Below are positions 2,724 to 38,219 of a stretch of DNA of 45,229 nt, one piece after another (position 1 is the first letter of the stretch; each line of letters starts with the position of its first letter). The DNA comes from a virus. The stretch lies in IMG/VR virus record IMGVR_UViG_3300034072_001022, positions 1 through 45,229 of that record; one strand, given 5' to 3'. The translations under genes and the position numbers were made by a program. Below the pieces are notes generated by a model. It was not told where the DNA came from and did not search any database. It worked only from the letters and a program-made list of their open reading frames with translations.

Positions 2724-4796
2724 ATGACCATCAACCTCACCCTCCCGCCCGAAACCCGCGCCGCGATCCGCAAGGCCATCGAAGCCGGCCTGGCGCCGCT
2801 GCGCGCCGACAAGCCCGTGCCTTACAGCATCTGGGCGGCTGAGAATTTCGAGCTGGATGAGGAATCAAGCCACCAGCGCGGGTTGTTCGTGCCGTGGCCG
2901 TTCCAGATCGGGTGGATGGATGCTTTCTCGAATGACGACATCTTTGAGGTCGACGTCGAGAAGGCCAAGCGGGTCGGCTATACGAAAACCGTCGTCGGCT
3001 TTGCCGAGTACGAAGCCCGGCATCGTCGCCGCAAGCTGGGCATCTGGCAGCCGACCGACGACGACCGCGACAGCTTCGTCAAGTCAGAAATCACACCGTG
3101 TTTCGACATCTGCCGGGCGCTTGATCCGGTGCGCCGCCTCGGCCGCGATGACGATACGATCAAGTTCAAGCGCTTCCGCGGCTCGGTGCAGCACTACCTC
3201 GGCGCCAAGGCCGCGCGCAGCTTCCGCCGGATCACCATCGCTACCGCGATTCTGGACGAAGTCGACGCCATGGATCAGGTCGTTGAGAAGACGATTGACC
3301 CGGTCACTGGCGCGATCGGCCGCCTCGAGGGCGCGCCTTTTCCCAAGGTGATCCTCGGGACCACGCCCCGGCACAAGCTGACCAGCCATGTCCGCCGCCG
3401 CGTCGACAACGCCGATGCGGTCATGGAATACAACATTCCCTGCCCGCACTGCGGCGCGCAGCATCCGCTGATCTGGGGCGGCGCCGAGGTCAATCACGGG
3501 ATGAAATGGGACGCCGGCGACCCGTCGACCGTGCGTCATGTCTGCCCGCACTGCCTGGCATCGATCCGCCAGGGCGACTACCTCGCTATCTGGGAGCAGG
3601 GCCAGTGGCTCAGCCGGTGTGGTGGTTTCGTCTATGACCACATCGCCACGGTCTGGACCGATGGCGATGGCAACCCGCGCAAGCCGCCACGGCATGTCGC
3701 TTTCGTGCGCGCCTGGACAGCCTACAGCCCGCAGCGCACCTGGTCGGACATCGTTCGCGAATTCCTCGAGGCGCGCAAGGCGCAGAAGGTCGGCGACACC
3801 GGCCCGATGCAGGGCTTCAAAAATGAGACCTTGGCCGACGTCTGGGAAGAGTCCTACGACCACACCGACGCCAGCGTCCTGCGCGAACGCGCCAAGACGG
3901 ATCTCGACATCCCCCTGCAGGTCGTGCCGAACGGTGCCGCCAAAGTGCTGGTCGGTATCGATACCCAGGCCGACCGCTGGGAAGCCGTTGCCTGGGCCAT
4001 CGGCCCGAATGGCGAGCGCTGGCCAATCGACTACCGCGTCATCTACGGAAACCCGGCCGTGCAGACCGAGTGGGGCGAAAAGCTCGATCCGATCATCCGC
4101 ACCGTCTATCGCCATATCAATGGCCACGACGTCAAGATAGCCGCCGTCGGCATCGATACCGGCGGCAGCAACTGGACGCACCAGGCCTATAACTACTGTC
4201 GCGAGCGCCAGCACCTCGGCGTTTACGCCACCAAGGGCGATGGCGCCTTGGGCGCGCCGATCAAGATGAAACCGACCTGGGTTGACGTCAATGCCGCCGG
4301 CCGTACGCTCAAGCGCGGCGTCAAGCTCTGGCGCATCTGTACCGACACCGCCAAGGATCTGCTGCACGGGCAACTTGACCAGGTCAAGCAGCCGGGGCCC
4401 GGCTATATCCACCTCAACCGCTACCTGCCGCCGGAGTTTTTCGACCAGCTCACCGCCGAGCACCGCATCCGCGTCCGCCTGGCGCATGGCTACGCCGAAC
4501 GCTGGGTCTGCCCGTCGGGCATCCGTAACGAAGTTCTCGACTGCACGGTGATCTGCATGCTGCTCGAGCAGATCCTCGGCCTGCACAACACGCCGGAGAA
4601 CACCTGGCGCATGTGGCTCAAGGCGCTTGAGCCGGATTTGTTCGCGCCGCCGATGGTGCTGAATGTTGAGGTCGACCGTGCAGAAACCGAAAAAACCACC
4701 CATGTAGTCCAGACGTCTGCACCGTCTGAAGCCCCTGAAAAGACCGAGGAAAACCACGATGACGATGATCTCTTCGCCCCGATCAAAATCCGATAA
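2724..4796 (+). CDS. terminase large subunit, lambda gpA family
   Basis: A 690-residue ATPase-nuclease. ATG 2724 is preferred over an in-frame upstream start at 2679 that would overlap the Lar gene by 34 bases. The variant Walker A of lambda gpA is visible (KAKRVGYTK, ~80-88) with Walker B (AILDEVD, ~176-181). Two CPHC pairs (~240 and ~274) form a zinc-ribbon insertion. The nuclease domain starts near 410, with GIDTQ (Asp ~413), GIDTG (Asp ~478) and NEVLDC (Asp ~606) as likely metal ligands. The acidic C-terminus probably contacts the portal. The enzyme cuts and translocates phage DNA into proheads. Family membership favours cos-type packaging. Confidence 0.93.
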   Translation: MTINLTLPPETRAAIRKAIEAGLAPLRADKPVPYSIWAAENFELDEESSHQRGLFVPWPFQIGWMDAFSNDDIFEVDVEKAKRVGYTKTVVGFAEYEARHRRRKLGIWQPTDDDRDSFVKSEITPCFDICRALDPVRRLGRDDDTIKFKRFRGSVQHYLGAKAARSFRRITIATAILDEVDAMDQVVEKTIDPVTGAIGRLEGAPFPKVILGTTPRHKLTSHVRRRVDNADAVMEYNIPCPHCGAQHPLIWGGAEVNHGMKWDAGDPSTVRHVCPHCLASIRQGDYLAIWEQGQWLSRCGGFVYDHIATVWTDGDGNPRKPPRHVAFVRAWTAYSPQRTWSDIVREFLEARKAQKVGDTGPMQGFKNETLADVWEESYDHTDASVLRERAKTDLDIPLQVVPNGAAKVLVGIDTQADRWEAVAWAIGPNGERWPIDYRVIYGNPAVQTEWGEKLDPIIRTVYRHINGHDVKIAAVGIDTGGSNWTHQAYNYCRERQHLGVYATKGDGALGAPIKMKPTWVDVNAAGRTLKRGVKLWRICTDTAKDLLHGQLDQVKQPGPGYIHLNRYLPPEFFDQLTAEHRIRVRLAHGYAERWVCPSGIRNEVLDCTVICMLLEQILGLHNTPENTWRMWLKALEPDLFAPPMVLNVEVDRAETEKTTHVVQTSAPSEAPEKTEENHDDDDLFAPIKIR

Positions 4797-5103
4797 CTCG
4801 CCTGCCGACGATCGAATTGATGACGACATCCCTACCGTCGTCGAAGAGGAAATGCGCCTGGCCCGGCTGGCCAATATTCCTGCCGACGACATGCCGCGTT
4901 ATGTCGCGGATAGAATCCGGCTGCGCATCGCCGGAGCGGTTAGCTATACGCGCAAGCGCCAAGGGTCGCCGGCCCAGCGCGCCGCCGAGATCCGCCGAAA
5001 ATTCACCGGAGACAACATCGCCGAACTTGCCCGCGAATTTGACCTGACGCCAAATCGAATTCGGCAAATCGTCAATGGCACCTGCATGTCACGGACAAAA
5101 TAA
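4759..5103 (+). CDS. Mor-like transcription activator
   Basis: A 114-residue protein whose start lies inside the terminase gene (38-base overlap), after GAGGAAAACCACG. The C-terminal ~50 residues (RRKFTGDNIAELAREFDLT, then NRIRQIV) match the helix-turn-helix of the Mu Mor/C family, where an FxGxN...ELAxxYGLT motif precedes the recognition helix. The middle (residues 30-75) is helical, as in the Mor dimerisation domain. Mor switches on middle/late transcription in Mu. This gene ends directly in the first 34-bp repeat (5098-5131), an AT-rich element also found before the Rz gene, which makes that element a candidate binding site. The regulatory role is inferred. Confidence 0.65.
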   Translation: MTMISSPRSKSDNSPADDRIDDDIPTVVEEEMRLARLANIPADDMPRYVADRIRLRIAGAVSYTRKRQGSPAQRAAEIRRKFTGDNIAELAREFDLTPNRIRQIVNGTCMSRTK

Positions 5104-5131
5104 TTAATAAAAATTTCACCTAAAAATTTCC
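5098..5131. repeat. 34-bp direct repeat, copy 1 (candidate late promoter/operator or recombination site)
   Basis: This AT-rich stretch is identical over 34 bases to 13935-13968. It contains AAAAATTTC twice in tandem (5109-5117 and 5122-5130, 13 bases apart); each core AAATTT is self-complementary. It includes the TAA stop of the Mor-like gene and lies 25 bases before the W gene. It is conspicuous in GC-rich surroundings. Confidence 0.9.
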
Positions 5132-29371: not shown

Positions 29372-30361
29372 TCAGATTTTTCGCTGCAGCGTGTCCACCT
29401 GCTGCGCCTCTTCGATCTTGATGTAGCGGTCGCTCATGGCTTTCGTGGTGTGGCCAAGTAGCGCCTGGTAGTCGATTCCTGCCTGCTTCGCGTCCGTTGC
29501 GGACTTGGCGCGGATGTCGTGAAAATGGACGTCGTCGATCCCCGCTTTTTCTCTTGCCTGCTGCCACCAGGTATTAATCGTCGCGTAGCTGTAGGGCTTC
29601 CCGCGCTGAGTGCACAGCAGGTAGAGTCCTCGCACGGGGCGCGGGATCGCTTTGGCGGATTCGATCACCGCCTCGAGCGTTGCCGATCGCCGGAAGAGCT
29701 GCAGCTTGCCGGTCTTGATCTGCTTGATGGTCAGGCCATCTGCAGTCCAGTTGCTCAGGTGAATGGCCAGGATGTCGGAGATCCGCGCCGCCGTCACGTA
29801 GCTGATATCCATCGCGGCTTTCAGGATCGGGTGCGCGTGCTCGCGAATTGATCGATATTCGGCGTCGGTGATATACCTGCCGCGGCTCTTGAGGCTGTGA
29901 CGCTTGATTTCGGCGACCGGGTTACGGTCGATAAACCCCTTGCGCACCGCCAAGCTCATGACGTTGGACAACAAGGCGCGGCCGAGGTTGGCCTGGCTTT
30001 TCGACGGGTGATCGTCCATCCATCCAGCTACATGGTGAGGCTTGATGTCGGCGGCGTAGCCGTCCTTGAAGTAGGCCTTGACCTGTTTCGAGACGCTCTC
30101 GTAACAGATCCTCGATGACGGGGCCAGGGCAGAAAATGCCGGCGACGAGATCCATGCGTCGATCAGGTTGTCGATGCGGTTTTCTTCGCGCGGACCGTTC
30201 TCGAGCTCTGCCCACTGGCGCCTGGCCTCGGCGAGATCGCTGCCCAGCGGTATCCACCGGCGCGGCGTGGTGCTCGTGACGTAGTAGTAGGCTTTGCCCT
30301 TCTGCGCCATTCGCGGCGGCAGATCGAGGTTGTTTTTTCGGCGGCGTCCCATGGTCGGCAT
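29372..30361 (-). CDS. integrase, tyrosine recombinase
   Basis: A 329-residue protein with RBS GAGGGC before ATG 30361 (a second ATG at 30352 is possible). The N-terminus MGRRRKNNLDLPPRM is typical of phage integrases. A core-binding domain spans ~60-160. The catalytic residues are Arg ~193 (TAARISD), Lys ~217 (KTGKL), HDIR (His ~281, Arg ~284), LLGH (His ~304) and Tyr ~313 (SDRY). It lies next to a DUF4224-type gene and the candidate attP, so it is the likely canonical integrase. Confidence 0.92.
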   Translation of the reverse strand: MPTMGRRRKNNLDLPPRMAQKGKAYYYVTSTTPRRWIPLGSDLAEARRQWAELENGPREENRIDNLIDAWISSPAFSALAPSSRICYESVSKQVKAYFKDGYAADIKPHHVAGWMDDHPSKSQANLGRALLSNVMSLAVRKGFIDRNPVAEIKRHSLKSRGRYITDAEYRSIREHAHPILKAAMDISYVTAARISDILAIHLSNWTADGLTIKQIKTGKLQLFRRSATLEAVIESAKAIPRPVRGLYLLCTQRGKPYSYATINTWWQQAREKAGIDDVHFHDIRAKSATDAKQAGIDYQALLGHTTKAMSDRYIKIEEAQQVDTLQRKI

Positions 30362-30959: not shown

Positions 30960-31243
30960 GCGGCCTCCAGGACCGTGCAGTGACAATGCACGCGATGGCG
31001 AACGACCTGGCCGGATTCGAGCAGGCCATCGAGCGCGTGGTAAAACTTGCTCTTGGTGTAGCCGAGATCACGCTGCACCTTGATTGCCTGGGTGCGGCCG
31101 TGCGTGCGCAGGTAATCGATGATCGTCTGCCGGGTTTCAACCGTGCTGATTTCGACCGGCGGCGGCAAGTGTCTGGCGCGGTCGTTCTCGTACCACCAGG
31201 TGCCGAGTTGGCATTGATTGAGGGCAACCGACAACAGGCTCAT
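30956..31243 (-). CDS. winged-helix DNA-binding protein
   Basis: A 95-residue protein. TRQTIIDYLRTHGRTQAIKV, then GYTKSKFYHALDGLLESGQV, is a clear MarR/ArsR-like helix-turn-helix with a wing ending in two histidine/cysteine pairs (HRVHCHC). It is probably a distant paralogue of its downstream neighbour. It overlaps the ParB/H-NS gene by four bases. Confidence 0.65.
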   Translation of the reverse strand: MSLLSVALNQCQLGTWWYENDRARHLPPPVEISTVETRQTIIDYLRTHGRTQAIKVQRDLGYTKSKFYHALDGLLESGQVVRHRVHCHCTVLEAA

Positions 31244-33474
31244 GACTGCGCCGCCTCGAACATGTCGGCGGTCTTGCTGCAGCGGGCCGGCTGGTTGGAC
31301 ACCTTGATCTCTTCCAGGGTGCCTCCATCGCTTAGCCAGGCCTCAACCCATTTCGGCTTTCGGCCACGGCCGGACCAGCAGAGATCGTGGTCGTCCGGAT
31401 GGCGGTATTCGACGAGCGGCGATGCGCTGTAGCGTTTTCCGGTCACCGGCACCGGTTCTGCATCGCCCGATGTGAAGGCGTATTTAGTTCCGGTCGGTTC
31501 TTCGTACATCTCGATTTCTTCGGCCAGCGCGGTGAACTCGGCGCCATCGTCAAGCGTAATGCTTGCAACGGGCTGGCCATTGAAAAGGGTCGCGCCAACA
31601 TCCCGAACGGTCCCGATCTTGCCGAGGCAGTCATGTTGTTCCATGCCCATTCCGCAGCCGATGATCCGCACGCGGTCGCCAATGGCGAACGTCGGCGACG
31701 TCCCTTTCGGTTTTTCCATCCCTTCCTCGGCGACAGCCGAGGCTCGATCTTGCTCTTCCTTGCCGCTTGCCGGGGTTTCGTCGGCTGTTCCTTCCGCCGC
31801 CTGCGCAGCGGTTTTCGCGCCGGAATCCTCCTGCGCCTGCGCAGCGGTAATCGGTGCAAGGGGGCTTTCAGTGGCTTCGCCGGGCGATTTTTCGATGTAT
31901 TTGTCATCGACGCCGGCCTTTTTTGCCATTTCGAGCAGCAGCGTCGGCGGATACTGCATCGACCATTCGCTGCACATCGATCCGCCGACGATCAGCAGGT
32001 CGATGGCCAGCAGCCACAGGTCGGGCAGGGGCATTTCCTCGATCTGCGTTTCCATGCGCTCTTTTCGCGCGGTGAAGTTCCGCCCCTCGGTCTGCCAGAT
32101 GGCCAGCACCTTGCGCAGCAGGTCGCCGTCGGCCGCGCGGTCGAACAGGCGGCGGACGATCTTGCGCATGATGGTCACTGCCAGCGGCGAATCCGGTAGG
32201 GCGTAGAACATGCCGGCGAGGTGGTTGAGCATGGCCTTGCGGGTTTCGTCCAGCAGCTTTTCGCGCCAGGCACGCTCGAGACGCAGGGCTTCCTCGGCCT
32301 CGGCCTGTTTCTCGGCCGCAGCAGCCTGTTTGCTGTTGAGGCCGGCTTGCTTCATGACCTCGGCGACGTTCTCGGCGCGCACGGTTTTGACCAACACGCC
32401 CCGCTTGACGTCTTCGACCATGACGACCTTGGCGGCATCGCCGAGGATCTCGGCGTAGGTGCGCTTTTCCGGGTCGTCGTGGCAGCGCTCGGTCAGATCG
32501 ACAAGGCCGGCGCGCTCGAGGTCGAAGCGATCGATCCCGTATGTACTGATCTTCGCCGCCTTTTCGCCGGTGATCACCTCGGCACCGTCGCTGGCCGCTG
32601 CCTCTACCTGGCGAGCGAAGTGCGCGGCCTTCTTGGCGTTGAAACAGGTCGGATCAGTGCAGACGTCTTGACTGCCGACGTCGGCGAAAATTTCGGGCTG
32701 GTTGCCGGTGCGCTTGGGGCAGTCGTGGCAGCGGCCAGCGTCCGGCAGAAGCGCCTTGTCGCCGCGCGGAAATGGCGCGTCGGCCAGCTTGAGCATGTAG
32801 CGATCGCGGATCAACTGCTGCGCCCTTCGCACGGACATGATGTCGCCCCGGTGATCCGTCTCAGTGATTTCCTTCACCGCCTGGGCGCGCAGCTCGTCAC
32901 TGGGGATTCGCGCAACGAGCAGCGCAGTCGACGCATTCAGCAGACCGCCGCGGAACAGCCGGCGCGAATCTTCGTCCAGGGCGAGCAGCTTGAGGCGGCC
33001 GAAAATGTAGCTGCGGCTCTTGCCGATCTTCTCGGCCAACTGGTCGGCGGTGTAGCCGTAGCGCTGCATCATCAGGCCGTAGCCTTCGGCCTCTTCGAGC
33101 TCGTGCAGATCTTCGCGCTGCAGGTTCTCGATCACCTGCAGTTCCAGCACCTGCTGGTCGCTCAGGTCACGGCAAAGCACCGGCACGTACTTGAGGCCGG
33201 CCGCCACTGCCGCCCGGTAACGCCGCTCGCCGGCGACGATCTCATGCAGCGGCATGACTTCGCTCGTCCAGGGCAGGTCTGCCGGCCAGGGGCGGACCAG
33301 CAGCGGCTGCATGACGCCGTGCAGGCGGACGCTCTCCGTCAGCTCGGCCAGCTTCTCGGCCGGGAAGGTCTTGCGCGGGTTGGTCGGGGAAGGGTGCAGC
33401 AGCGCAACCATGGCCGGCTCGCTGCGGCAGGCTTCGAGCTGGGCGGTGTTGGTGTCGGTGGCTTGGTCGGTCAT
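31240..33474 (-). CDS. ParB-family protein fused to an H-NS-type DNA-binding domain
   Basis: A 744-residue protein with RBS CGGAGC. Residues ~20-225 are ParB: AGERRYRAA (~81-89), ENLQRED (~116-122) and a KIGKSRSYIFGRLKLL helix-turn-helix (~149-164). Residues ~248-282 hold CHDCPKRTGN and CTDPTCF, a zinc-type insert seen in phage/plasmid ParB proteins. A helical region follows, then a KOW/SH3-like domain (~606-665, FAIGDRVRIIGCGMG). The end (~687-725) matches the H-NS C-terminal domain: HPDDHDLCWSGRGRKPKW, then GGTLEEI. H-NS domains bind AT-rich minor grooves. No ParA partner is encoded. Roles in silencing, replication or partition are all possible. Confidence 0.85.
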   Translation of the reverse strand: MTDQATDTNTAQLEACRSEPAMVALLHPSPTNPRKTFPAEKLAELTESVRLHGVMQPLLVRPWPADLPWTSEVMPLHEIVAGERRYRAAVAAGLKYVPVLCRDLSDQQVLELQVIENLQREDLHELEEAEGYGLMMQRYGYTADQLAEKIGKSRSYIFGRLKLLALDEDSRRLFRGGLLNASTALLVARIPSDELRAQAVKEITETDHRGDIMSVRRAQQLIRDRYMLKLADAPFPRGDKALLPDAGRCHDCPKRTGNQPEIFADVGSQDVCTDPTCFNAKKAAHFARQVEAAASDGAEVITGEKAAKISTYGIDRFDLERAGLVDLTERCHDDPEKRTYAEILGDAAKVVMVEDVKRGVLVKTVRAENVAEVMKQAGLNSKQAAAAEKQAEAEEALRLERAWREKLLDETRKAMLNHLAGMFYALPDSPLAVTIMRKIVRRLFDRAADGDLLRKVLAIWQTEGRNFTARKERMETQIEEMPLPDLWLLAIDLLIVGGSMCSEWSMQYPPTLLLEMAKKAGVDDKYIEKSPGEATESPLAPITAAQAQEDSGAKTAAQAAEGTADETPASGKEEQDRASAVAEEGMEKPKGTSPTFAIGDRVRIIGCGMGMEQHDCLGKIGTVRDVGATLFNGQPVASITLDDGAEFTALAEEIEMYEEPTGTKYAFTSGDAEPVPVTGKRYSASPLVEYRHPDDHDLCWSGRGRKPKWVEAWLSDGGTLEEIKVSNQPARCSKTADMFEAAQS

Positions 33475-33570
33475 GACGGGCTCCGGTAGGTGGCGGTCAT
33501 TTTTGATGTAAAAGTCGGTTTTATCGGGTGTTATGCGGCGCGGGCGCCGTCTATCCTGTGTTGGGCAGCA

Positions 33571-33807
33571 TCAAAACAGCCCAGGATCGCCAGCGCTCGC
33601 CGGGTTGGTTTGCGCTTCAATGTCGGCCTTCCACGGATTGCACGCTTGGATGCCGTCATCGTCCTCGTCGTCTGCTGCATCTTCGAGATCAAAAAACCAG
33701 CCGCATGCAGCGCATCGTTGCGTCCGGTCGTCATGGCCAAGCTCAATATCGTCATCATCAAGATCGGCCGGGTTGTGTTCTTTGCATCTGCACATCGGGC
33801 AAGCCAT
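33571..33807 (-). CDS. small acidic zinc-ribbon protein (integron-cassette-like position)
   Basis: A 78-residue protein with RBS AAGGAA. CPMCRCKEHN and RCAACGWFFDLEDA form a CxxC...CxxC zinc ribbon, followed by a run of acidic residues. The start codon lies ~26 bases after the end of the attC-like site at 33831-33900, as in an integron cassette. A lone GCCCAAC box on the minus strand (33566-33560) follows the stop within five bases. Function unknown. Confidence 0.65.
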   Translation of the reverse strand: MACPMCRCKEHNPADLDDDDIELGHDDRTQRCAACGWFFDLEDAADDEDDDGIQACNPWKADIEAQTNPASAGDPGLF

Positions 33808-33830
33808 TTCAGTTCCTTTCCGGGCGTCTG

Positions 33831-33900
33831 CCGCCCAACATTTCAGTCAACGCGGACCTTCGCGCTACGCGCTCGGCCCGTTACCGCCAGCGTTGGGCGG
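33831..33900 (-). repeat. integron attC-like recombination site
   Basis: Read leftward, the outer boxes are GCCCAAC and GTTGGGC (R''/R', extended to 9-bp complementarity at both edges). The inner boxes 33884-33875 and 33858-33846 pair as GTAACGGGCC with GT(C)AACG(C)GG(A)CC, leaving extra bases unpaired as in attC. A GCGC-GTA-GCGC apex (33862-33872) completes the hairpin. The 3' end TTGACTGAAATGTTGGGC resembles known attC ends. The upstream gene's stop codon (33865-33867) lies inside it, as is usual for cassettes. Confidence 0.8.
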
Positions 33901-34197
33901 AATCCACCAGAACCGCTCAACCCGCCCGGCGATTCGCCTCTCCACACGCTGGCAGCCAAGCTCACGCAGTAGCACGCTGAGGCGGATGACCTCGTCGCGT
34001 GACATGCGGGTCATGTCGCGCTGCAGGGCGCCTTTGCAGATGTCGTGCAGGGTGAAATGCTCGGTGCGGTTGTTCAGCCAGTCGGTGACTGCGCTGCGCA
34101 GTCCGCTCTGGCCCTGCAGGCCGGCGCGGATCGCGGCAAGCGTGCGCTGGATGTAGCCGCGCCCCTTGCGGCTTTCGCGGGTAACTAGCAGGGCCAT
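33865..34197 (-). CDS. small protein with primase-type C-terminal winged helix, ending inside attC
   Basis: A 110-residue protein from ATG 34197 (GGAGG upstream; an ATG at 34212 lacks an SD). Residues ~60-100 (MSRDEVIRLSVLLRELGCQR... RFWWIPP) resemble the end of the primase-helicase at 42056 (TRDVQTRIGWALRKLGCRK... RFWYDPP). After the PP the last nine codons (NAGGNGPSA) are encoded by the attC-like site. The native C-terminus may therefore have been replaced. Confidence 0.65.
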   Translation of the reverse strand: MALLVTRESRKGRGYIQRTLAAIRAGLQGQSGLRSAVTDWLNNRTEHFTLHDICKGALQRDMTRMSRDEVIRLSVLLRELGCQRVERRIAGRVERFWWIPPNAGGNGPSA

Positions 34198-35051
34198 GAC
34201 GTCGGCCTCCATTCGGCACCGCGCACGGCCTTGCCGGCGGGGTAGATGGCATAGACCTCGGCGAAGCCGTTGGCGCGGGCGGCGGACATGGCCAGCGCCT
34301 GGGCGTTCTTGCCCAGCTTGGTGCGGCGCAGGGGCTTGCGCGGCGTGACCACAACATAGCCGGCTGGCTCGCGGTGCTCGACGGTTGCCGTCGTGCGGGT
34401 ATTCGCCTCGGCGAGTGCTGCTTCGAGGTCGGCGATCCGGGCATGGGCCTCGGAAAGTTTCGCGCCCATGTCGACCTTGACCTCGTCGATCATCGCGGTT
34501 GCTTTGTCGAGACCGCGTTCGGTCAGGTCGATCAGGCCTTTGTTGAGGATCTCGACGCGTTCAAGTTCGGTGATCCTGCCGTTGCGCTCGGACAGCGTAA
34601 GCTCAAGCTGCTCAATCTTCTTCGCCTGGTTACTGAGCGTTTCCGTGGCCAGCGCGTGACCCTGTTTGCGCTCGCGGATTTCTTGCTGCAGTTCTTCGAT
34701 CTTCGCTTCCAGTTGCGCGGTCGACAGATGGGGTTCCTCGGCCTTCGTCGCGGACTGGGCGGCCGTGTCACGCCGAAATGCCTTTGCCGGTACATAGGGC
34801 GCCGGCGGGGCGATGACCTTGCCGCCGATGGGCAGCCAGTATTCCCACTGCTCGCCGCCGCCGATGTCCTTGGGCACGGTGACCTTGACGCGGGCCAGGT
34901 CGCCGCGGGTGGCCAGGTTGTTGAGGGTGGTTGCCAAATGCGCGGGGTTTGCCTTGAGCGCCTTGGCCAGCGGGCCGCAGCGGGTGCGGGCCGCGCTGTT
35001 GGCCTCGAACCAGTCGAGGACCTTCTCGGTCATGTTCCTGTCGTTGGACAT
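34185..35051 (-). CDS. coiled-coil protein with N-terminal winged helix
   Basis: A 288-residue protein with RBS AGGAG. Residues ~5-70 look like a winged helix (EKVLDWFEANSAARTRCGPL, then TLNNLATRGDLARVKV). Residues ~108-215 are a long coiled coil (EEPHLSTAQLEAKIEELQQE and similar heptads). A C-terminal basic domain (~225-288) contains TPRKPLRRTKLGKNAQALAM. It resembles phage replication/recombination accessory proteins in layout only. It overlaps the next gene by 13 bases. Confidence 0.6.
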   Translation of the reverse strand: MSNDRNMTEKVLDWFEANSAARTRCGPLAKALKANPAHLATTLNNLATRGDLARVKVTVPKDIGGGEQWEYWLPIGGKVIAPPAPYVPAKAFRRDTAAQSATKAEEPHLSTAQLEAKIEELQQEIRERKQGHALATETLSNQAKKIEQLELTLSERNGRITELERVEILNKGLIDLTERGLDKATAMIDEVKVDMGAKLSEAHARIADLEAALAEANTRTTATVEHREPAGYVVVTPRKPLRRTKLGKNAQALAMSAARANGFAEVYAIYPAGKAVRGAEWRPTSWPC

Positions 35052-36351: not shown

Positions 36352-36528
36352 CTATTTGCTCCGGTTGTTGCGCTTGATGCGCATGCCGAGTTCGTGCCAG
36401 CGGGCAATCGAAAACATGTTGGCCGGCACGCCGTGCTTTTCGAGGTAGCGGAAGGTGGCGAAATCGCCCCAGCGCTCGCGGTTCTTCGCCGCGCGCACCG
36501 CCGCAATCGCTTGAGGGCTGGCGCTCAT
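36352..36528 (-). CDS. small hypothetical protein
   Basis: A 58-residue basic protein with RBS GGAGGG. It overlaps the methyltransferase stop (ATGA). It carries NRERWGDFATFRYLEKHG and RWHELGMRIKRNN, suggestive of nucleic-acid binding. Not recognised. Confidence 0.55.
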   Translation of the reverse strand: MSASPQAIAAVRAAKNRERWGDFATFRYLEKHGVPANMFSIARWHELGMRIKRNNRSK

Positions 36529-38219
36529 GCTGCCCTCCGGATGGAAAGCCAGGGCGCGTTTGCCTCGAGAAAATCAGCGGCATCCACCGGATCGACCGAG
36601 TTGCCGACCATGCGCACCTGGGTGGATTTCGAGAACCGGCGGCCGTCGTGGCCGCGGTCGATGATGTAGTCGGCCGGGAAGTCGTTGGCGTTGTACAGCT
36701 CGCGCGGCTCCAGCATGCGCAGGCCGATATCGACGATCACATAGGGCGTGCCGGCGATGGTGACGGTAACCAGGGCCATGCGGTCCTTTGTCGTGATCGT
36801 GGTCAGCGGGTCACCGAGGTCGGACCACTGGCCGCCCTGGCCGTAGTAGCGCATCAAAAAGGCGGCGACGCGCAGCGCGCCGGCTTCTTCGGTCGGTGAC
36901 AGAATTGCAGTCACCAGCTGTTGCTGGCTGCCGCTGTTGGTGACCGTCGAGAAAGGCTCGTCCGCAGCATGCCCGGGCGTCGTGTTGAAACCGCCGTTGG
37001 CCTGCATCAGGTAGGCAGTCGCCAGCGCCCGATGGTTTTCGGTCAACACTGTGCCCATGGGGTCAGACGGCGATGACGGCTTACCCGCATACTCGGGGCC
37101 GCCGGTACCGACGAGGATGGCGGTTCCGACGGCATGCTTTCCGGTGCCGACGACGGTGCCCAGCGGCTGCTCGATGTCCATGACGCGCGGCGCCTGGCCT
37201 TCGTGCTCGCCGTAGCCAGTTTGAACCAGTGTTGGTGCAACCAACGCCCGACACCCGCCGTTTTCCGTCGCAATCGTGCTGATCGGCTGGCGGATGTCCT
37301 CGACCTTTCCGCCGTGCGCCATGTTCACGATAAACGGCTTCGGGTTGTCGAGAACGAACTTGCGAATCCCCGTAGCGATCCGCTTCATCGTCGCCTCGGC
37401 CAGCGGGCGCTCGCGTTCGAAGATCGAGCGGCAGGGCAGCGAGAAGTCGATGCAGTCGGCGGCCGGCTTCCAGCGCCTCTGCCCTTTCTTCGGTTCCTTG
37501 AAGAACTTCGGCTCGGGGAAGGTAATCGGGTGGCCGTCGCGGCGGGCGATGAAGAACAGGCGGGTGCGCGTCGTGTGGCCGCCGGCATCGGCAGCGCAGC
37601 GGACGCGATAGTCCCAGCGGTAGCCCAGCGCATCGAAGGTGGCAACGAACCGGCACCAGGTCTGGCCCTCGCGCTTCTTGTCCGGCACCAGGTACTGATC
37701 CTGCACCGGCACGCGCTCACCCTTGTCGGCGACGGCCCAAGTGGTTTTCCCCTTGGCGTCCACCACGCGCTTGAGGCAGCGGCCGGTGGCCGGGTCGCGC
37801 TTGGCAACCAGCGGGCCCCATTTCAGCATCTGCTTCACGTTCTCCATGCTGATCACCTCCGGGCGAACCTGCCCGGCCCAGCGCGGCAGCACCCAGCCCA
37901 GCCCGCGAATTTTCTTGCTGCGCGGCTGTCCGCCAGCGGCCTGGCTGTGGTGCGTGCAATCCGGCGAACCGTGCAGCCAGCCCACCGGGCGGCCCTGGGT
38001 GACCGTGCGCGGGCAAACTTCGAAGACATCGGCAACGAAATGGCGGGTCTGCGGGTGATTCATTCGGTGCATGGAAAGCGCGTCGTCGTTGTGATTGACG
38101 GCGATGTCCGGTGACCGGCCGAATGCGCGCTCGAACGCGAGCGACATCCCGCCGCCGCCGGCGAAAAGATCGACGATCAGCTTGCCGTTGAGGTCGAGCA
38201 TGAGTTGGCGGGCGCTCAT
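36525..38219 (-). CDS. DNA (cytosine-5) methyltransferase with five-repeat central region
   Basis: A 564-residue protein with RBS GGAGGG. Motif I is DLFAGGGGMSLAF (~17-29), motif IV is GSPDCTHHS with catalytic Cys ~88, motif VI is MENV (~125-128), motif VIII is TRTRLFFIA (~217-225), and motifs IX/X are RELYNANDFP (~506-515) and QVRMVGNSV (~534-542). Between VIII and IX, a ~30-residue unit with a (D/E)xP(L/I/M)xT(I/V) core occurs five times (~308, 347, 384, 419, 467). No cognate restriction enzyme is nearby, so it probably shields phage DNA from host restriction. Confidence 0.9.
   Translation of the reverse strand: MSARQLMLDLNGKLIVDLFAGGGGMSLAFERAFGRSPDIAVNHNDDALSMHRMNHPQTRHFVADVFEVCPRTVTQGRPVGWLHGSPDCTHHSQAAGGQPRSKKIRGLGWVLPRWAGQVRPEVISMENVKQMLKWGPLVAKRDPATGRCLKRVVDAKGKTTWAVADKGERVPVQDQYLVPDKKREGQTWCRFVATFDALGYRWDYRVRCAADAGGHTTRTRLFFIARRDGHPITFPEPKFFKEPKKGQRRWKPAADCIDFSLPCRSIFERERPLAEATMKRIATGIRKFVLDNPKPFIVNMAHGGKVEDIRQPISTIATENGGCRALVAPTLVQTGYGEHEGQAPRVMDIEQPLGTVVGTGKHAVGTAILVGTGGPEYAGKPSSPSDPMGTVLTENHRALATAYLMQANGGFNTTPGHAADEPFSTVTNSGSQQQLVTAILSPTEEAGALRVAAFLMRYYGQGGQWSDLGDPLTTITTKDRMALVTVTIAGTPYVIVDIGLRMLEPRELYNANDFPADYIIDRGHDGRRFSKSTQVRMVGNSVDPVDAADFLEANAPWLSIRRAA

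Follow-up and report, generated by a model that had tools for sequence, protein, structure and literature searches.

A probable inverted integron cassette in a phage operon, and a likely class of phage-borne integrons

The attC site and the genes around it

The window, by which we mean the whole 45,229-base IMG/VR virus record IMGVR_UViG_3300034072_001022, contains a run of minus-strand genes into which an integron attC site is set (Table 1). Gene A ends inside the site, and gene B and a gene for a ParB-like protein follow it on the same strand. The fusion of ParB with an H-NS domain is unusual-looking, and the same operon region also carries a C-5 cytosine methyltransferase (36525-38219) without an attC site nearby. 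The tyrosine integrase of the record was considered as a cassette recombinase and rejected, as it is an ordinary phage enzyme and not an IntI; a search of the record with TIGR02249 (IntI) gave no match, so that the earlier statement that no IntI is encoded here holds.

Table 1. Features of the window that bear on the attC site and the proposed cassette
Feature	Position	Strand	Remarks
attC site, as top strand	33833..33898	+	Placed by covariance model, fold and motif scan; minus strand is the predicted recombined bottom strand
R'' box	33833..33839	+	GCCCAAC
L'' box	33846..33852	+	GT(C)AACG, extrahelical base at 33848
L' box	33879..33884	+	CGTTAC
R' box	33892..33898	+	G^TTGGGC; right cassette boundary, cut between 33892 and 33893
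Second G^TTGGGC	33560..33566	+	Left cassette boundary, 4 nt beyond the gene B stop
Inferred cassette	33561..33892	+	332 bp, inverted gene B plus attC; from boundary repeats and flank joining
Gene A	33865..34212	-	115 aa; residues 108-115 and stop read from attC DNA
Gene B	33571..33807	-	78 aa; CxxC...CxxC, zinc-ribbon-like, acidic stretches
ParB-like protein	31240..33474	-	H-NS C-terminal domain
Phage tyrosine integrase	29372..30361	-	Ordinary; not IntI

The complementary outer boxes, the inner boxes with an unpaired base and the GCGC apex on which the original prediction of an attC site was based are all present. The outer arms are extended by two further pairs (CC at 33831-33832 with GG at 33899-33900), the inner boxes pair G33846, T33847, A33849, A33850, C33851 and G33852 with 33879-33884 and leave C33848 unpaired, and the hairpin apex has the form GCGC-loop-GCGC. 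A motif scan for RYYYAAC...GTTRRRY arms with a bulged L box found this site as the sole occurrence in the 45,229-base record. To score the site we built a covariance model from 33 aligned attC sites of bona fide integrons, nearly all from IntI-adjacent arrays of Burkholderiales genomes and a few from class 1 integrons, with the window excluded. The prediction was borne out by a significant plus-strand score of 48.0 bits (E = 3.7e-10, such E-values being rough), well inside the 20-80 bits spanned by the sites of real integrons on the same model, while a sequence profile gave 26.3 bits against 12.0 for the best of 100 shuffled windows. When the minus strand of 33833-33898 was folded with DNA parameters, the minimum-energy structure was the canonical attC (-14.4 kcal/mol), with a mean R-stem probability of 0.95, or 0.99 with the 9-bp arm.

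A search of 72,556 plasmids with the site returned two nearly full-length matches, both of them attC sites between aadA2 and cmlA1 in class 1 integrons. In other phages, too, the stretches most similar to it are attC sites. An Rfam search at the site found nothing relevant, and a direct nucleotide search of known phages gave no match. Judged from sequence and predicted fold, the site is a genuine integron attC, functional in form, and its recombination by IntI is predicted. A second, weak match to the attC model lies on the minus strand at 2278-2334 (24.8 bits, E 3e-4), antisense to the local genes; its R boxes (GCCGAAC/GTTCGGG) depart from the consensus, and it is perhaps a decayed site.

The probable cassette and its orientation

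A cassette ends at the G^TT of its R' box, and its gene is usually, although not always, oriented as its attC. In the window the side of the L-box bulge and the covariance model both place the attC top strand on the plus strand, while the surrounding genes are on the minus strand, so that the site runs against the genes and lies antisense to a co-directional phage operon. The layout noted originally, in which one gene stops inside the site and the next starts just beyond it, is indeed seen, but its reading as a sense cassette was rejected on the evidence of the bulge and the model. Because the site is inverted, the cassette is to be sought on the side of gene B, rather than as gene A plus the site. 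The next plus-strand GTTRRRY leftward of the attC is at 33560, and GTTGGGC occurs on the plus strand of the record in only two copies, at 33560 and 33892. The segment between them has G^TT on both sides, one attC and one gene, as a cassette does, and departs from the usual co-orientation in that gene B is antisense to its attC. The earlier inference that a phage without IntI had captured a cassette is thereby supported, with the cassette being the gene-B side.

Joining 33560 to 33893 deletes the cassette and gives gene A back a normal end (FWWIPPNTG*). The predicted empty-site junction would be CTATCCTGTG joined directly to TTGGGCGGAATCC, with gene A then ending NTG*. A direct search of viral and genome contigs gave no relatives of gene A; its only detectable homologue (L088/L089) ends IYYTTPAAE*, is equal in length to the cassette-free gene A, and ceases to be homologous at the cassette junction. 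Among the sequences searched there was no closely related phage with the empty site, and no attI was obvious at 33560.

Gene B has no Pfam family, and its single-sequence AlphaFold model, with a mean pLDDT of 46, carries no usable information; its sequence resembles that of a small zinc ribbon and has acidic stretches. Direct scans gave no relatives in viral contigs, phages or plasmids. A search of the cassette arrays found homologues with 42-58% identity in the phage arrays L308, L374, L463 and, weaker by E-value, L261/L420/L499. A further homologue adjoins intI, and is co-directional with it, in the bacterial integron L207. In this Burkholderiales integron (L207, 13010-14001), where the array genes listed have the sense orientation, the homologue sits between intI and the first attC in the inverted orientation that phages show; the arrangement suggests possible traffic between phage and bacterial cassette pools, and it is the sole hint that phage cassettes may be donated to host integrons.

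Polarity of attC sites in viral and bacterial loci

We scanned IMG/VR with two attC patterns and scored the resulting loci by the covariance model and the sequence profile, with gene strands assigned by our own dicodon gene caller (96% strand accuracy). In the pattern-found viral loci, which were picked by a Burkholderiales-type integron motif that also bounds their host breadth, both neighbouring genes were antisense to the site in 404 cases and sense in 6, vs 7 and 73 in IntI-linked bacterial arrays. Counted per locus, the viral contigs, which overlap and are not independent, gave 167 antisense, 3 sense and 4 ties, against 2 antisense, 32 sense and 6 ties for the bacterial arrays (Fisher p ~1e-31). 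A control that used the motif and the side of the bulge only, with no model, gave 120 antisense and 3 sense in viral loci, and 0 and 13 in bacterial ones. Among the bacterial IntI loci a clearly antisense array was seen in one alone (L181/L210, contig 3 of G063), whose 19.6-kb contig could itself be a phage.

Spacing is tight in viral and bacterial arrays alike, with stop, site and next start falling within a few tens of bases. The array units are mostly 300-800 bp, and lie all on one strand in 121 of 123 loci. Phages with a related parB gene also have attC matches antisense to the operon, at least five of them in L142.

Phage integron integrases and the architecture of the arrays

Among 50 attC-bearing viral records, four have an IntI above the curated TIGR02249 cut-off and 23 have a terminase of the one family tested. 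A scan for IntI showed that at least 80 viral contigs encode it, and 80 viral loci were kept. Upstream of viral intI we counted 95 antisense attC sites and no sense ones, and the genes there are overwhelmingly co-directional with intI (L443 is a textbook inverted array with IntI). The standard relation between intI and attC is thus kept, and it is the genes that have flipped, forming an apparent operon with intI on its 3' side. In a tree of IntI sequences the phage and bacterial labels are clustered, with 4 changes vs a shuffled mean of 27.

The portal family of the window phage occurs in 21 of 50 IntI-bearing viral records, and the terminase family in five of 50 of a largely overlapping set. 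The parB genes of L421 and L434-L436 have intI directly upstream of them, in the slot that the cassette takes in the window. The window itself holds no complete integron, there being no intI in the element, and it has no counterpart of the downstream, co-directional intI present in the 80 other viral loci. Its gene order suggests a member of this group that has a single cassette and no intI, the cassette lying in the slot upstream of parB where related phages keep that gene; its lineage may have lost intI or may never have had one.

Two further observations concern individual phages. Virus Rctr41k (KX853513; L501, 68-5678) has an integrase-like xerD with a 46% match to phage IntI, 3' of a co-directional run of small genes, and the covariance model found no attC in it. 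An exact 74-bp repeat (3391-3464 and 5057-5130) inside the array of the IntI-bearing phage L434 is possibly a duplicated cassette end.

Probable cassette movement and gene content

Breakpoints of similarity between viral contigs fall at attC sites with a sharp edge: 48 of 150 lie within 20 nt of the R' core, where 7.5 are expected. One pair of contigs (L324 and L328) is 99.6% identical over 6 kb and differs by one 534-bp single-gene unit flanked by the repeat GCCTAACGC; this unit recurs in another context in L296 (99.6%). A second pair of this type is apparently formed by L381 and L407. In an alignment of 125 sites, nearly all of them viral, 90% of paired cells are standard pairs, covariation is 0.401 vs 0.130 in shuffles, and the least variable features are the R-box core, the extrahelical base and the G^TT core. 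Together these patterns suggest that the phage cassettes are moved by IntI catalysis.

The 351 genes directly behind antisense attC sites form 264 families with a median length of 100 aa. Pfam searches of 110 family representatives and gene B recognised Mom (2), Acb2/Tad1 (2), Tad2, Lar, NADAR, RNA ligase, N6/N4 and C5 DNA methyltransferases, and others; ten cassette genes of L324, L381, L443 and L142 gave no Pfam family. In a control set of 111 similar-sized genes taken elsewhere in these contigs, the families listed, which were all but 6 of those recognised, have functions that are ordinary for phages (NinB, terminase small subunit, tail, lysis, RusA and Cro). The comparison is suggestive of an enrichment of the cassettes for counter-defence genes, although the counts are small, and we infer a role of the cassette pool in counter-defence.

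Interpretation and alternative explanations

We hold it very probable that 33561-33892 is a cassette of attC and gene B, inserted at G^TT and belonging to a phage-specific, inverted kind of integron, with IntI acting in trans. The cassette would have entered gene A through a G^TT site at its 3' end, next to parB, and recombination would act on the folded bottom strand of its attC, with IntI from the host or a co-resident phage supplied in trans because the record encodes none. In the phage-specific integron proposed here, the attC top strand would point away from intI, as is standard, and the cassette genes would be inverted. They would then be co-directional with intI in one phage operon of the form promoter-(attC-gene)n-intI, so that a single phage operon could read all of them, and the cassettes would probably be transcribed from a phage promoter.

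Several other accounts of these observations have to be weighed. If the site were a hairpin of phage RNA or DNA with a mere likeness to attC, such as a terminator, a translation control or a replication signal, the strong hairpins that the sites form and their place directly before start codons in a transcribed operon would be accounted for. We know of no terminator, however, that requires the three features named above as the least variable of the aligned sites; similarity between viruses breaks at G^TT, with whole units moving, and IntI accompanies some arrays. On these grounds the terminator or RNA-element reading was rejected, and we regard a mere resemblance as extremely unlikely. Were the viral contigs with inverted arrays bacterial integron fragments miscalled as viral, the polarity contrast would be uninformative on phages, and some contigs do show no hallmark gene of the two families tried; about half nevertheless carry a terminase or portal, though one family was tested per set, and bacterial arrays show the opposite polarity, by which this very improbable account is largely refuted.

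A simpler origin, in which an ordinary bacterial cassette hopped once to a secondary, attG-like G^TT in a phage and no phage-specific system exists, would agree with the single site and missing intI of the window, and with the resemblance of its attC to the sites of host integrons. Cassette insertion at attG sites of bacterial genomes has been described (Loot et al., 2024, as covered in PMC12901181), and the window resembles such cases in that its cassette sits at a G^TT where neither attI nor attC can be recognised; it differs from what is related there in that position, polarity and gene family suggest a phage cassette pool rather than a random insertion. Against this origin, most host cassettes share the orientation of their attC (73 vs 7), but the cassette of the window is antisense, as is the rule with few exceptions in phages. 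Inverted phage arrays also contain relatives of gene B, and in related phages the slot beside parB is occupied by intI. We consider a single captured host cassette improbable.

Relation to known integrons and significance

Integrons are bacterial gene-capture platforms, of which a few captured copies have been reported in phages. The phage elements described here are like class 1 and sedentary chromosomal integrons in their R'', L'', L' and R' boxes, extrahelical base, bottom-strand hairpin, G^TT boundaries and cassette size and, in the IntI-bearing phages, in the geometry from intI to attC. They differ in that the cassette gene is inverted with respect to attC and co-directional with intI, and in that a phage operon encloses the array. 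Qi et al. (2023; PMC9892861) have reported phage-borne integrons, CALINs and attC sites; in the available text of that study, attC sites and IntI occur in tailed phages as they do here, five of six tested phage attC sites recombined with attI1 under IntI1, and the virulent phages TJE1 and PH101 have arrays that are typically oriented. Two phages of that study that we examined, Shewanella phage M16-3 and Vibrio phage p16, carry arrays that are for the most part divergent, as is canonical. The same available text gives no description of inverted arrays co-directional with intI, and a search of literature covering few subscription journals and no preprints found no published account of them. Phage-borne attC sites are thus already known, while the inverted operonic architecture is apparently undescribed.

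We think it likely, with less assurance than for the window's own cassette, that tailed phages have their own widespread class of integrons, with a pool of cassettes rich in counter-defence genes that is shuffled at attC and read from the phage operon rather than from Pc, and that the window is a reduced example of it. If so, such an integron, adapted to phages and reversed in cassette polarity, would give them a dedicated means of collecting and swapping small genes, many of them apparently anti-defence (Mom, Tad1/Acb2, Tad2, Lar and DNA methyltransferase are among the recognisable families). It raises the question of gene traffic between the phage and bacterial cassette pools. The antisense attC beside each gene offers a sequence handle for discovering counter-defence genes, and part of the mosaicism of phage early operons would be explained.
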